Shown piece by piece: positions 38,479 to 62,168 of a stretch of DNA of 64,000 nt (the first letter of the stretch is position 1; each line of letters starts with the position of its first letter). The notes under the pieces are model-generated. The model worked only from the letters and a program-made list of their open reading frames with translations. It did not search any database and was not told the origin of the DNA. Both the position numbers and the translations under genes were made by a program. Origin of the DNA: Haladaptatus sp. R4 (GTDB lineage: Archaea > Halobacteriota > Halobacteria > Halobacteriales > Haladaptataceae); contig NZ_LWHG01000031.1 of assembly GCF_001625445.1 (NCBI RefSeq), forward strand, positions 62,001 through 126,000, given 5' to 3'.

Positions 38479-39168
38479 ATGACTTCTCGCCTCGAATTTC
38501 AGAACGAGTCGGGCGAGGGTTCCACCGTCCAACACGTGACGTTCATGGAGTGGCTTTCCGGCTTGAAAGCCAGGGGCAGTAACCTTCTCGTCACGGGCGA
38601 GGTTCCCGAGGAAACGAGTGCCGAGTTCAGCCGGACGCTGTTTGGACAGGGGGGACGAACGCGAATTCTCGGACTCGTCAATCCCTCGACGATGGACGCG
38701 GAGTCGTATCTCCCCGGCACACCGAGCGGGTCGAGGACGCAGGTGATCGACCAGCGCCCGGACTATCGTGCGGCGACGGCCGACGACTCGACTGCCGCTC
38801 GGCCGACCGACATCGATCGAGAATCGTTCCGCTCGGCACTGGTTTCGGCGATCGAGGTTCACAACGACCGAAACGGTGGGTTCGAGCCCGCCGAACTACG
38901 GCTCGGCCTCGATTCGGTCGAGGTGTTGGAGATGGACGACGACCTCGTTTCGCTCACGCAGTTCCTACGGGGGATTACCGCACTCGTTCGTGGGGTCCAC
39001 GGAATGGCACACTACCACCTTCGCGTCCCGGACGACGACCCGATGGTGGACGAGCTATCGCCCCTGTTCGACGCTCGCATCGAACTGCGAAAACGACCGG
39101 GGCGGGCAGAACAGCGCTGGCACGTGCCGACGCTCGATGAGACGACGGACTGGGTAGAACTATCGTAG
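38479..39168 (+). CDS. DUF7504-like haloarchaeal protein
   Basis: A TATA-like CTTATTT at 38448-38454 lies about 28 bases before the ATG giving MTSRLEFQNESG, so the mRNA looks leaderless and the 229-residue start is firm. The strand NLLVTGEVPEETSAEFSRTL resembles the first strand and helix of a RecA-like fold but with no Walker A lysine. Proteins of this kind are called DUF7504 or HTR-like in Halobacteria. It lies 21 bases before the CHAT gene and should be co-transcribed. Role unknown; I infer a sensor or scaffold. Confidence 0.7.
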   Translation: MTSRLEFQNESGEGSTVQHVTFMEWLSGLKARGSNLLVTGEVPEETSAEFSRTLFGQGGRTRILGLVNPSTMDAESYLPGTPSGSRTQVIDQRPDYRAATADDSTAARPTDIDRESFRSALVSAIEVHNDRNGGFEPAELRLGLDSVEVLEMDDDLVSLTQFLRGITALVRGVHGMAHYHLRVPDDDPMVDELSPLFDARIELRKRPGRAEQRWHVPTLDETTDWVELS

Positions 39169-39189
39169 GTAACGGGAAATACAAGAAGA

Positions 39190-41271
39190 ATGGAGTTTCG
39201 ACGGCACACGGAGCGTGATGGGCTCGATATCCACGACCCCATCGAAAACGTCAGGTTTGCGTTGTTTACGTCGAGCGCCGTCGATTTGATGCCTGCCGAC
39301 ACGTCGATGTTTTACTTTCCGGTCGATGCCGCCGTCGAAATCGAGACGACCGCTCTCGAAGTGCCGAAATCGGTGCCCATAACGATTCGCCAGCGAGACG
39401 GCACGATGGTGGCTGAAACCTCGAACGAATCGGACTGTTCCTTCGAATCCGGGGCGTATCTGGTCGAGCTGAGTTCGGCACCGATGAAGCTGTATCTGCT
39501 ACTCGATAGCTCGATGCGAATCGAATACGAAGGTAAAGGGGCTTTCTTTTCGTTCGACCCCGACACCACCGTTTACGTCGGAGCGCGCTCGTACCACGAC
39601 CAGCCAGCGGGGACGATAACCGTCACCGACGACATCCGGGACGTGATGCGCGCCATCTCGCTGTTCGGATCGGCACTGAAGACGCTCTCGCCCGAGCGCT
39701 CGTTCCCTACACTTCGGGGCCATCCGCCGCTCATCGAGTACGGTGAGGAGTTTTCCGCGCCCGACGCCCTCGAACCCGCCGATTCGGGTGTCGAACTCGT
39801 CGTCCCACCGGACCGCGAACACGTGTATCCGATAGCGCCGCTCGCGTACTATCTCGGTGCGACCGTGATTCCAGGAGACGACCCACGTCTCGTCGCCGGA
39901 TCGTTCGAGCATCCCCTCGTCGGTTCCGAGGGGTACGGCGAAACCGTCAGCCGCGTCCTCCGACAAGCGTTCTTTCTGGACTGTCTGATCCGGACGGAAG
40001 GCTACTACCGAATAGAACTCCACGAGCGAGAACGAGTCGAACCGCTGGTCGATTTCGACTTCGCCGAACTCTACGACACCCCGCTTCCGGAACGACTCGC
40101 GGCATACTTTTCGGTGCCGTTCGAGACGCTCGAACCGTTCGTCCCGAACTGGCAGTTGGGGGTCGATCTCGCCCCGACGGCGAACGGTATCGAGTACGTT
40201 CCGTATCTCGCCCGTGACCTCGCGCTCGTCCGAATTCCGGACGAACCGACGCCCAAAGCAGCCAAGCCGATGTCCAACGCCCAGACGGAATTTTTCCGAT
40301 CCCCGGTATCGGGTGCCTTGACTCGCGGAGCGAACGGGTGGGATGCGGTGGACGAACACGACATATTTCAGGTGGACGCGATGCCGAACGTCGTCGAGCA
40401 GGCGTGGGCAGGCCCGGGATACCCGCTGAAGGTCAACAAACTGGATGTGAGCGCGCTTCGAGGGCGTATCGACCGTCGCCCTTCTTCGGACACAATCACC
40501 ATTCACGTCGTCTGTAACGACGAGGGGATGATGGACGAGAACGTCGTTCGTGAGAGATACGGTTTACAGGAGATGCTCGACTTCGACGTGATCGCACACT
40601 ACGATCTATCGCGTGACGAACTCGCAGACCTGCTGGCTCAGTCGGCTGATTTCATCCATTACATCGGCCACGTAGACGAAAACGGGTTCCTCTGTTCCGA
40701 TGGGTCGCTCGATGTGCGGTCGATTCCGGCGGTCGGCGTGTCCGCATTTCTGTTGAACGCCTGCCAATCCTACGAACAGGGGCACGAACTCGTCAAGAAG
40801 GGAAGTCAAGGCGGCGTCGTAACGCTCTCGCCGGTTGGCAACCCGATGGCGACGGAACTCGGGCAGACGATGGCACGTCTTCTGAACCGTGGATTCACGC
40901 TTCGAACCGCGTTATCCATCGCCCAGCGCCATTCGGTACACGGCTACCAGTACACGGTCATGGGCGACGGAGGTGTGTCGCTCGTCCAAAACGAGAAGGG
41001 GAATCCGCGGTATCTGAAGATAGAGCGAGTCGGCGAAGACCGGTTCGAGGTCGAGATAAGCGTGTGTTTGACCTATCTGTTCGGACTCGGCACTCACGTC
41101 AATTTCCATCACGACTGGTCGCAAAAACGGTTTTTGGGGTCCGCGCCAGTGACGACGTTGACATTGACCGCGGAACCGCTCCAAGCCGAACTTTCGAAAC
41201 AAGTCGTTCCGGTCGAGGTGAACGGTGAACTCGTCTGGAGCGATGAAATACAGGTATCCCATCTGGAATAG
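39190..41271 (+). CDS. CHAT-domain (caspase-like) protein
   Basis: The 693-residue protein has about 430 residues of unique N-terminal sequence and then a CHAT peptidase fold. The catalytic His is in FIHYIGHVDENG (His494) and the Cys in LLNACQSYEQG (Cys525), followed by the typical GSQGGVVTLSPVG block and the helix GFTLRTALSIAQ. CHAT enzymes are separase/caspase relatives with dyad His-Cys and are used in bacterial defence and cell-death systems. There is no signal peptide or membrane helix. Partner genes are the DUF7504-like gene upstream and the 44-residue peptide gene downstream. Protease activity is inferred from the intact dyad. Confidence 0.82.
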   Translation: MEFRRHTERDGLDIHDPIENVRFALFTSSAVDLMPADTSMFYFPVDAAVEIETTALEVPKSVPITIRQRDGTMVAETSNESDCSFESGAYLVELSSAPMKLYLLLDSSMRIEYEGKGAFFSFDPDTTVYVGARSYHDQPAGTITVTDDIRDVMRAISLFGSALKTLSPERSFPTLRGHPPLIEYGEEFSAPDALEPADSGVELVVPPDREHVYPIAPLAYYLGATVIPGDDPRLVAGSFEHPLVGSEGYGETVSRVLRQAFFLDCLIRTEGYYRIELHERERVEPLVDFDFAELYDTPLPERLAAYFSVPFETLEPFVPNWQLGVDLAPTANGIEYVPYLARDLALVRIPDEPTPKAAKPMSNAQTEFFRSPVSGALTRGANGWDAVDEHDIFQVDAMPNVVEQAWAGPGYPLKVNKLDVSALRGRIDRRPSSDTITIHVVCNDEGMMDENVVRERYGLQEMLDFDVIAHYDLSRDELADLLAQSADFIHYIGHVDENGFLCSDGSLDVRSIPAVGVSAFLLNACQSYEQGHELVKKGSQGGVVTLSPVGNPMATELGQTMARLLNRGFTLRTALSIAQRHSVHGYQYTVMGDGGVSLVQNEKGNPRYLKIERVGEDRFEVEISVCLTYLFGLGTHVNFHHDWSQKRFLGSAPVTTLTLTAEPLQAELSKQVVPVEVNGELVWSDEIQVSHLE

Positions 41272-41406
41272 TTACGGTCCGGAGTTCGATCCACCCCCTG
41301 CGAGTACGGGACCGAACTGCGTCACCAGCAGGGTAAGGGCGAACAGTACTCCGATCAGTCGAGGATGCTCCGTTAGCTTTGCGCGTAGTGCATTGTTTTT
41401 CGCCAT
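41272..41406 (-). CDS. 44-residue membrane peptide ending NSGP (DUF7503-like)
   Basis: The frame encodes a basic start MAKNNALRAKLTEHPRL, a hydrophobic helix IGVLFALTLLVTQFG and a small polar end GGGSNSGP. It lies in the convergent gap after the CHAT gene, with its stop directly touching the CHAT stop (41271/41272). A TATA-like AATTATAATTC (minus strand) lies 28-38 bases upstream, giving a leaderless mRNA. I recall similar haloarchaeal peptides (DUF7503) with N-S/N-x-GP ends near DUF7504/CHAT genes; this is from memory. The shape is of an inner membrane single-pass or exported peptide. Confidence 0.65.
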   Translation of the reverse strand: MAKNNALRAKLTEHPRLIGVLFALTLLVTQFGPVLAGGGSNSGP

Positions 41407-41427
41407 CGCGATCGAACGATTCTACTA

Positions 41428-41460
41428 TCATGAATTATAATTTTTTTAATAGTTCATGAA
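41428..41460 (-). promoter_or_regulatory. Promoter with flanking TCATGAA/TTCATGA inverted repeat
   Basis: On the minus strand the TATA-like AATTATAATTC of the 44-residue peptide gene is flanked by the inverted pair TCATGAA (41428-41434) and TTCATGA (41453-41459). This is a plausible operator. The winged-helix gene 55 bases further upstream is the natural candidate regulator. Binding is not shown. Confidence 0.45.
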
Positions 41461-41514
41461 AAACATCAATTGGGGTTACGGTAGAATAATCGTATTATTT
41501 CCAAAGCAACGTTT

Positions 41515-41865
41515 TCATCGCGTAAAACCGCCGATAGCGTCCGATATCGGATCTCTGAGTTCGTAAATAACGTCGTCGAGTTCGTCGGACAACCGCTGTA
41601 ACAGTCGCGCGTGTGTCGTCGTGGCGAGCGTATATTCCGGGTGTGCACCGTCGGCATCGACCGTTTCGACCAGTTCGAGGTCGAGCAGTTCGTCGCGGTG
41701 GTTCGTCCACGTACTCGGTGCGGTTCCCGCGTGGTCCGCCAACTCCGTCGCGCTGAAACTTCCGTCCGGGTCGTCGGCGAGCACGGCGAGAAATTTCATC
41801 CGTGCGGGATAGACGAACACCTGCGCGAGGGGTGGTGACGTGAGATCGTTGTTCCGGGGATACAT
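41515..41865 (-). CDS. Winged-helix transcriptional regulator
   Basis: The start at MYPRNNDLTSPPLAQ yields 116 residues; 23 further codons upstream lie in an AT-rich promoter. The helix-turn-helix is FSATELADHAGTAPSTWTNHRDELLDLELVE (about residues 36-67, quoted in parts), then a wing and a C-terminal helical part. Proteins like this regulate small haloarchaeal loci. It is upstream of the 44-residue peptide on the same strand. Confidence 0.75.
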   Translation of the reverse strand: MYPRNNDLTSPPLAQVFVYPARMKFLAVLADDPDGSFSATELADHAGTAPSTWTNHRDELLDLELVETVDADGAHPEYTLATTTHARLLQRLSDELDDVIYELRDPISDAIGGFTR

Positions 41866-42305
41866 ATGGTATGTTATCACATATTTGTTTGAAAACAGTG
41901 TTGGAGTTCGTTTGAAGAAGGACGGATTGAACATACTGTCAGCAAATGGGAAAATTTTAGACGGGAGCAGTAATAATCACGGATTGGATGCGTGAAATTC
42001 ACACGGATCGCCGATGCAAACGTACGGCTTCCAGGACCGGTCACCGCCACTCAACCCGTCCGGGAGTTCGGCGAACTGCGACACATCGTCGGCCGCCGTG
42101 TCAGCACGCATCCTGTCGCTGCCAACCGATCAGGCCTCTGCACCCTTGATCGGTTCCACTTTATCAGTCTCGCTGACGATTTGATCCGTCGGTTCCTCCC
42201 CGCCGAACCCGGACCCCGATTATCCGGTGGCGAACGATATGGTGTCCATTCCTCGTCCATCGAATCAAATGTATTTTTAACGGATGACGACTGGAGTTTA
42301 GAACG
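41866..42305. other. Mostly non-coding region between the winged-helix and MinD-like genes
   Basis: It contains an AT-rich promoter for the winged-helix gene (about 41866-41900), the possible small or decayed gene described separately (41977-42249) and a TATA-like TATTTTTAA (42272-42280) that would place the minD-like transcript near 42305, i.e. leaderless. A longer plus-strand reading (41992-42405) overlaps minD and was rejected. Confidence 0.5.
41977..42111 (-). CDS. Possible 44-residue small protein, or 3' end of a decayed gene
   Basis: The frame MRADTAADDVSQFAELP ... CIGDPCEFHASNP has acidic haloarchaeal character and two Cys. The same frame continues upstream, across a TGA at 42130-42132, as an acidic stretch ending DKVEPIKGAEA, and across a TAA at 42220-42222, up to an ATG at 42249 (MDTISFATG). 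The set looks like one 91-codon gene with two stop codons, or a small stand-alone gene. Function unknown. Confidence 0.35.
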   Translation of the reverse strand: MRADTAADDVSQFAELPDGLSGGDRSWKPYVCIGDPCEFHASNP

Positions 42306-61259: not shown

Positions 61260-62168
61260 TCAATCGACGAGCAGCGGTATCTCGGTGGCTTCCGTCCGAA
61301 CCTCGTCCATGTCGGGGACGGTGGTTCCGGGGACCGTCACGACGCGGGACGCGACGGTGATTCCGACGCGGAGCGCGATACGGTCGGATTGGCCGCGAGC
61401 GAGCGTCGAGAGGACGCCAGCGAGCAGGCCGTCCCCGGCACCGACCGAATCGACCACGTCCACGTCGAGCGGTTTCGCGTGGAAGACGCCCTCGTCGGAG
61501 GTGAGAAGCGCACCGTCGTCCCCGAGCGAGGTGATGACGCGGTCGAACCCCTTCTCCCGGAGCGCGTGGGAGGCTTCGGCGCACTCCTCGATACTGTGGA
61601 CCGGCATGCCGGTCGCGCTCGCCAGTTCGCTCCGGTTGGGCTTGCAGAGCGCGTAGTCGCCCGCAACGCCGGTCAGGAGGTCGCCCTGTACGTCCACGAC
61701 GGTCTCCCACGGCCCGGCCCCTGCGATACGGTCGATGGTCGCCGGACCGAGGTTCGGCGGGAGGCTCCCGGCGATGACGACGATTTCGGGTTCGTACTCG
61801 CGCACCTTCGCGATGAGTTCGCGGACGGTTTCGTCCTTGACACCCTGTCCGGACTGATTGAGTTTGTACTCGCCGTCCTCGCCCAGAATCGTGGTGTTGA
61901 GCCGGGTGCACACGTCCATCTCCACGAAGTCGTTCGGCACCTTTCCGCGGATGAGTTGCTCCTCGATGTAGCGACCGAGGAAGCCGCCGACGAAGCCCGT
62001 TGCGAGCGTGTCGACCTCCAACCTGGAGAGGTATTTCGAGACGTTGATGCCCTTGCCGCCGGGGTCGTACTGGGTCATGCTCGACCGCATGACGCCACCC
62101 GGTTCGACGTCCGAATCGACGGAAACGGTGTAATCGACGGCCGGATTGAGCGTGACGGTCAGGATCAT
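61260..62168 (-). CDS. pfkB: 1-phosphofructokinase (PfkB family)
   Basis: The ATG overlapping the glpR stop gives MILTVTLNPAVDYTV, 302 residues of the PfkB kinase fold. Signature blocks are GGKGINVSKYLS (about 38-49) and DSVGAGDGLLAGV (about 245-257, catalytic Asp). In haloarchaea such glpR-linked pfkB makes fructose-1,6-bisphosphate from fructose-1-phosphate, as known in Haloferax. The stop at 61260 leaves a 190-base gap with no gene. Confidence 0.9.
   Translation of the reverse strand: MILTVTLNPAVDYTVSVDSDVEPGGVMRSSMTQYDPGGKGINVSKYLSRLEVDTLATGFVGGFLGRYIEEQLIRGKVPNDFVEMDVCTRLNTTILGEDGEYKLNQSGQGVKDETVRELIAKVREYEPEIVVIAGSLPPNLGPATIDRIAGAGPWETVVDVQGDLLTGVAGDYALCKPNRSELASATGMPVHSIEECAEASHALREKGFDRVITSLGDDGALLTSDEGVFHAKPLDVDVVDSVGAGDGLLAGVLSTLARGQSDRIALRVGITVASRVVTVPGTTVPDMDEVRTEATEIPLLVD

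Follow-up and report, generated by a model that had tools for sequence, protein, structure and literature searches.

The question raised by the locus described here is whether a protease and a very small membrane protein whose genes meet end to end are functionally tied, and what the one would be to the other. The locus lies in the window, a 64,000-nucleotide stretch of the 4.9 Mb genome of Haladaptatus sp. R4 (positions 62001–126000 of contig C31). A CHAT cysteine protease gene (39190–41271, + strand, 693 residues) starts 21 bases 3' of a DUF7504 gene (38479–39168, + strand, 229 residues, ATG at 38479), and a gene for a 44-residue membrane peptide of the DUF7503 family, MAKNNALRAKLTEHPRLIGVLFALTLLVTQFGPVLAGGGSNSGP (41272–41406, − strand), converges on it. 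The CHAT stop codon TAG (41269–41271) and the minus-strand stop codon TAA of the peptide (41272–41274) are directly adjacent, i.e., the genes lie tail to tail. An earlier note on this DNA had described these elements, with a catalytic His494/Cys525 pair in the protease, as a candidate undescribed protease–effector system; the genes, the dyad, and the abutting stop codons are all present as it described them. CHAT and DUF7503 very probably form a functional unit, and the module is real and ancient.

Conservation of the CHAT–DUF7503 Pair

Neighbor counts were drawn from stretches fetched around nearly all DUF7503 matches in 28 genomes of the family Haladaptataceae. Convergence with a CHAT gene was found for 121 of 125 peptides, with a median gap of 1 nucleotide (5–95% range −4 to +35), a count in which a handful of the loci may figure twice because some of the fetched stretches overlap. 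The paired CHATs in the family are only about 40% identical, yet the tail-to-tail pairing recurs. All of the 30 best class-wide loci show the same arrangement, as do named loci of Haloferax, Haloarcula, Halorubrum, Halobellus, Haloterrigena, and others. Within the family, the shortest gap is −17 and the longest +109 nucleotides, and some other genera have gaps of more than 100. General neighbor clusters serve as a guide only, since simple open reading frame calling is noisy in high-GC DNA.

The pairing also holds at the genome level. Each of the 28 family genomes contains CHAT (4–19 matches), DUF7503 (2–12), and DUF7504 (9–25). Among 292 genomes of the class Halobacteria, 250 have both CHAT and the peptide, 21 have CHAT alone, 21 have neither, and none has the peptide alone; CHAT is present in 271, all 21 CHAT-negative genomes are also peptide-negative, and the peptide mostly occurs in one copy per genome across the class. 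The corresponding Fisher p value of 1e-20 is descriptive only because the genomes are related. The earlier note had considered that its proposal would fail if the peptide were found mostly without CHAT/DUF7504 nearby; a peptide lacking a CHAT neighbor is in fact very rare in the family and across the class. On a tree built from 169 CHATs, the lack of a peptide at 27 of them takes 8 changes, compared with 25.4 in shuffles, a pattern mostly consistent with losses in Haloplanus and in one clade of Haladaptatus. Of the explanations for the pairing, a direct functional relation between CHAT and the peptide fits best.

Structure and Catalytic Dyad of CHAT

The CHAT protein consists of an N-terminal β domain, a helical middle, a disordered linker (residues 366–386), and the C-terminal CHAT domain. 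Hydropathy gives no membrane helix, and the protein is soluble. Its AlphaFold2 model has a mean predicted local distance difference test (pLDDT) score of 87.1, and a Foldseek comparison of the model with solved structures returned SAVED-CHAT (PDB 8tl0) with an expectation (E) value of 1e-8, and also gingipain RgpB, separase, and procaspase-3. The score of 16.5 bits against Pfam PF12770 lies under the gathering score of 24, and PF12770 matches 13 of 33 CHAT members at E ≤ 1, but the predicted caspase-type fold supports the assignment.

The predicted catalytic residues are His494 (codon CAC, 40669–40671, + strand), within IHYIGH, and Cys525 (codon TGC, 40762–40764, + strand), within LLNACQS. Both are kept in 169/169 CHATs, peptide-paired and peptide-less alike (118/118 in a first set), in the contexts H-x-x-GH and NACxS, so that the lack of conservation named by the earlier note as a second way for its proposal to fail was not encountered. 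This conservation carries weight, since loss of the dyad does occur among relatives beyond the paired clade. Indeed, a CHAT relative from outside the class Halobacteria (L330) has Arg/Asp at the dyad positions. It belongs to a set of distant relatives (L328–L331) that come from one other family of the phylum and align over residues ~33–627; among them, the dyad is intact in L328 and L331, and no DUF7503 peptide was seen. A second haloarchaeal CHAT group, without the peptide, also retains the dyad. Collectively, sequence and model point to a clan-CD (caspase/separase-like) cysteine protease with predicted activity.

Two further sets of loci bear on the distribution of the protein. Four haloarchaeal sequences (L332–L335) keep the N-terminal part of CHAT, with both dyad residues gone, and are pseudoenzyme paralogues. 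In one genus, six loci (L304–L306, L309, L311, and L312) have CHAT and DUF7504 with the dyad retained, and a convergent peptide was not detected at them.

Anatomy of the DUF7503 Peptide

The window peptide scores 59 bits against PF24335, above the curated cut-off of 27. The signature read from 174 unique peptides is LxxYLxx[HN]P[RK]MxG(V/A)LF, and the peptide has a single predicted membrane helix. The conserved Pro lies 31 residues from the C-terminus in 134 of the 174, a Gly-Pro C-terminal end is found in 167, and the residue after the conserved Pro is basic in 96% (Arg 71%, Lys 25%); as the sequences were picked by a match to P[RKQWT], the selection itself guarantees the Pro and slightly favors a basic residue after it. 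The distribution of charges suggests an N-in topology, in which a short stem in the cytosol is followed by the helix and a short tail on the outer side. The peptide is under purifying selection, with a ratio of nonsynonymous to synonymous changes (pN/pS) of 0.26 for the whole peptide; the value is 0.21 for the body and 0.46 for the tail. At the Gly-Pro end, all four codons are in use for Gly and for Pro, indicating that selection on the peptide acts at the protein level.

At several apparently peptide-less CHATs, a very divergent peptide occupies the same spot and retains the NHPK/HPW...GP anatomy. The public annotation of NZ_CP085330.1 (L296) omits the peptide gene beside a CHAT, so the DUF7503 family is probably under-annotated.

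DUF7504 as a Frequent Neighbor

The DUF7504 protein of the window matches PF24336 with 155.2 bits (E 3e-45; curated cut-off 27). Its AlphaFold2 model (pLDDT 88) resembles KaiC/RAD51 (Foldseek, E 2e-7), in line with a KaiC profile match (E 2.5e-4). A strict Walker A motif is found in 0 of 130 DUF7504 sequences; ATPase activity is therefore unlikely. At some loci, DUF7504 is fused to HalOD1 or DUF7344, which suggests a signaling role.

DUF7504 stands beside 110 of 155 CHAT–peptide pairs, a set with duplicates removed and named loci included: in 80 it lies just upstream of CHAT and in 30 it is divergent beside the peptide. Its association with the pair is thus frequent and flexible but not obligatory, and its membership of the module, as the earlier note saw it, holds as that of a common neighbor. 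The leaderless start ascribed to the DUF7504 gene is plausible only, with TTATTT 25–30 nucleotides 5' of the ATG.

Proposed Mechanism and Alternative Explanations

We tentatively read the DUF7503 peptide as a substrate of CHAT. The protease may be kept inactive or guided by the KaiC-like, P-loop-less DUF7504 and would recognize the conserved cytosolic stem of the peptide, LxxYLxx[HN]P[RK]M. A signal would then trigger cleavage of the stem by CHAT, the simplest site being just behind the basic residue adjoining the membrane, and the cut would change or free the membrane part of the peptide as a signal or stress output.

Several observations weigh against this reading. The dyad is intact in the 27 peptide-less CHATs, which fall into two main clades with further losses scattered elsewhere, Haloplanus among them, so the peptide cannot be the sole substrate. 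The basic residue adjoining the membrane is expected from the positive-inside rule as well. In addition, for four peptides of the family no CHAT lies within 1.5 kb, and for three of them the whole fetched stretch lacks one. For the orphan peptides L116, L117, and L148, no alternative partner was seen among the neighbors, whose translations were read by eye and correspond to ordinary genes (amidotransferase/APC/UspA-like; MiaB-like and cation-efflux-like).

A close rival, which we hold to be somewhat less probable than cleavage, is that DUF7503 stays uncut and, as a small subunit in the membrane, uses its conserved cytosolic stem to anchor or activate CHAT, the real substrates being other proteins. 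Such docking would account for the constant length of the peptide as well as for the conservation of its helix and stem motif, would give a membrane attachment to a protease that has no membrane helix itself, and agrees with the peptide-less CHATs, for which other substrates probably exist since they retain the dyad. However, a plain anchor needs neither a conserved outer Gly-Pro end nor a strongly conserved helix.

It is rather improbable that DUF7503 is the pre-peptide of a secreted signal, in which an export leader bearing an AxA-like site frees an 8–9-residue Gly-Pro tail and CHAT/DUF7504 respond to it or process it. The size of about 44 residues, Ala at −10 (73%) with Val/Ala at −12, the faster evolution of the tail relative to the body, and the many paralogous cassettes per genome would suit such a signal, but the leader is more constrained than an ordinary signal peptide, a receptor or importer was not identified, and divergent peptides such as MQSKLATLGRNHPKVMSTIFTAFLLIAQFLLTTDISPLADTHPGP keep the anatomy without the AxA site. 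A pure signal peptide was rejected on this last ground.

Still less credible is a gasdermin-like effector that CHAT would release to damage membranes, whether in antiviral suicide or in competition. CHAT proteases are generally known to drive such systems in bacteria, and a small hydrophobic helix such as the peptide would suit that role; against this, peptide and CHAT occur together in most genomes of the class, mostly with one peptide copy, unlike patchy defense genes. This near-universal distribution fits core physiology or signaling better than a defense or suicide device. PADLOC matched none of the three proteins of the module (CHAT, the peptide, and DUF7504), the neighboring genes not having been scanned against Cas models, and no CHAT relative was found in IMG/VR viral contigs. 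With its distribution, these results led to the rejection of a defense system.

Finally, the stop codons abut or overlap at many loci, as would suit antisense or termination control of two transcripts whose proteins are not directly related, but the varying gap lengths, the free variation of the Gly-Pro codons, and the nesting of the two families at the genome level make this the least likely explanation.

Paralogous Loci and Neighboring Elements

The genome of Haladaptatus sp. R4 has eleven CHAT genes, of which the window locus is one and another is broken into two frames. It encodes five DUF7503 peptides at Pfam strength, each convergent with a CHAT within 60 nucleotides, and a sixth, divergent peptide (L279) that overlaps a CHAT end by 4 nucleotides. 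The broken paralogue (L046, C28:236500–246500) is split into frames at C28:242565–243656 and 241627–242472, with its convergent peptide intact, and represents a pseudogene or an assembly error. At another locus (L278, C28:370500–381500), one DUF7504 gene is followed by three tandem CHAT genes, with no recognizable peptide for any of them. Elsewhere in the family, the solo DUF7503-like peptides of L117 and L148 occupy syntenic places beside the MiaB-like gene, with no CHAT nearby.

Upstream of the window peptide lies the winged-helix-like regulator gene that the earlier note had included in its system (41515–41865, − strand, 116 residues, or longer from an ATG at 41934). The gene is present, and its product has weak HTH_20/MarR model matches. 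About 12 matches were found in 120 loci, all of them orthologues of the window locus; since the gene recurs solely there, it lies outside the general module, and the winged helix was rejected as a universal partner. At most loci, the region 5' of the peptide ATG is rich in A and T. In the window, it contains an AT-rich promoter-like element, AACTATTAAAAAAATTATAA (41435–41454, − strand), that ends 28 nucleotides 5' of the peptide ATG. Orthologues have TATTATTAAAAAAATTATAA or a one-base variant of it, and the window copy matches TATTATTAAAAAAATTATAA at 18 of 20 bases. As a promoter element common to the paralogues it was rejected, being strong in orthologues only and elsewhere modestly above shuffled sequence.

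Comparison with Known Systems

The closest solved fold to the haloarchaeal CHAT is SAVED-CHAT of type III CRISPR, from which the haloarchaeal protein differs in its membrane-peptide and pseudo-KaiC partners and in that no SAVED sensor domain was found. In TPR-CHAT (Csx29)/Craspase of type III-E CRISPR, a CHAT likewise has a dedicated protein partner encoded by an adjacent gene; in the haloarchaeal CHAT, no TPR fusion was found, and its partners have 44 and about 230 residues. The bacterial gasdermin system also places a caspase-type protease gene beside a membrane-active candidate, whereas the haloarchaeal neighbor is a single-helix peptide that is far shorter and falls outside the gasdermin fold.

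Separase and gingipain R of clan CD have the fold and the His/Cys dyad in common with the haloarchaeal CHAT at a sequence identity of about 11–15%, and an Arg-type P1 specificity, as predicted by this likeness, would suit the conserved [RK] of DUF7503. DUF7504 matches KaiC and archaeal KaiC-like signaling proteins by fold and profile, but differs from KaiC in that none of the 130 sequences has Walker A. In the Rap-Phr systems of Bacillus, as is generally known, a peptide gene of about 44 residues overlaps its partner gene and paralogues are many, as here; the haloarchaeal genes are convergent, the proteins are different, and secretion would be hypothetical. The protease–precursor logic proposed here has a haloarchaeal parallel in halolysin HlyR4 and the HFX_0892 precursor (PMC12893001); there, the protease is an extracellular one of the serine type and the precursor is secreted. 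That paper does not mention CHAT.

Significance for Haloarchaeal Biology

As far as our searches show, the module is unreported, in agreement with the earlier note: no paper was found that describes it, mentions DUF7503 or DUF7504, or links the CHAT domain with haloarchaea. Plasmid records label the CHAT protein as hypothetical, caspase family, or CHAT domain-containing, and one leaves the peptide unannotated.

A high caspase-like (LEVDase) activity, sensitive to zVAD-FMK, is reported for Haloferax volcanii (PMC3615174). The genome of this species has DUF7503, and other Haloferax species have the full module. Since every surveyed genome with the peptide also has CHAT, CHAT is a candidate gene for this orphan activity. 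With 100 mM NaCl in the buffer, H. volcanii gave no activity towards an Arg substrate (PMC3615174); if Arg-specific, CHAT would not explain the caspase-like activity under those conditions. A class-wide caspase-like pathway, in which CHAT, a dedicated membrane-peptide substrate, and a pseudo-KaiC switch contribute to haloarchaeal caspase-like activity, is at present a speculative and rather unlikely extension of these results. Nevertheless, most haloarchaea have a caspase-type protease, although archaea have long been described as being without caspase gene homologues (PMC3615174), and DUF7503 and DUF7504, both of unknown function, now join an unassigned protease in a single testable pathway.

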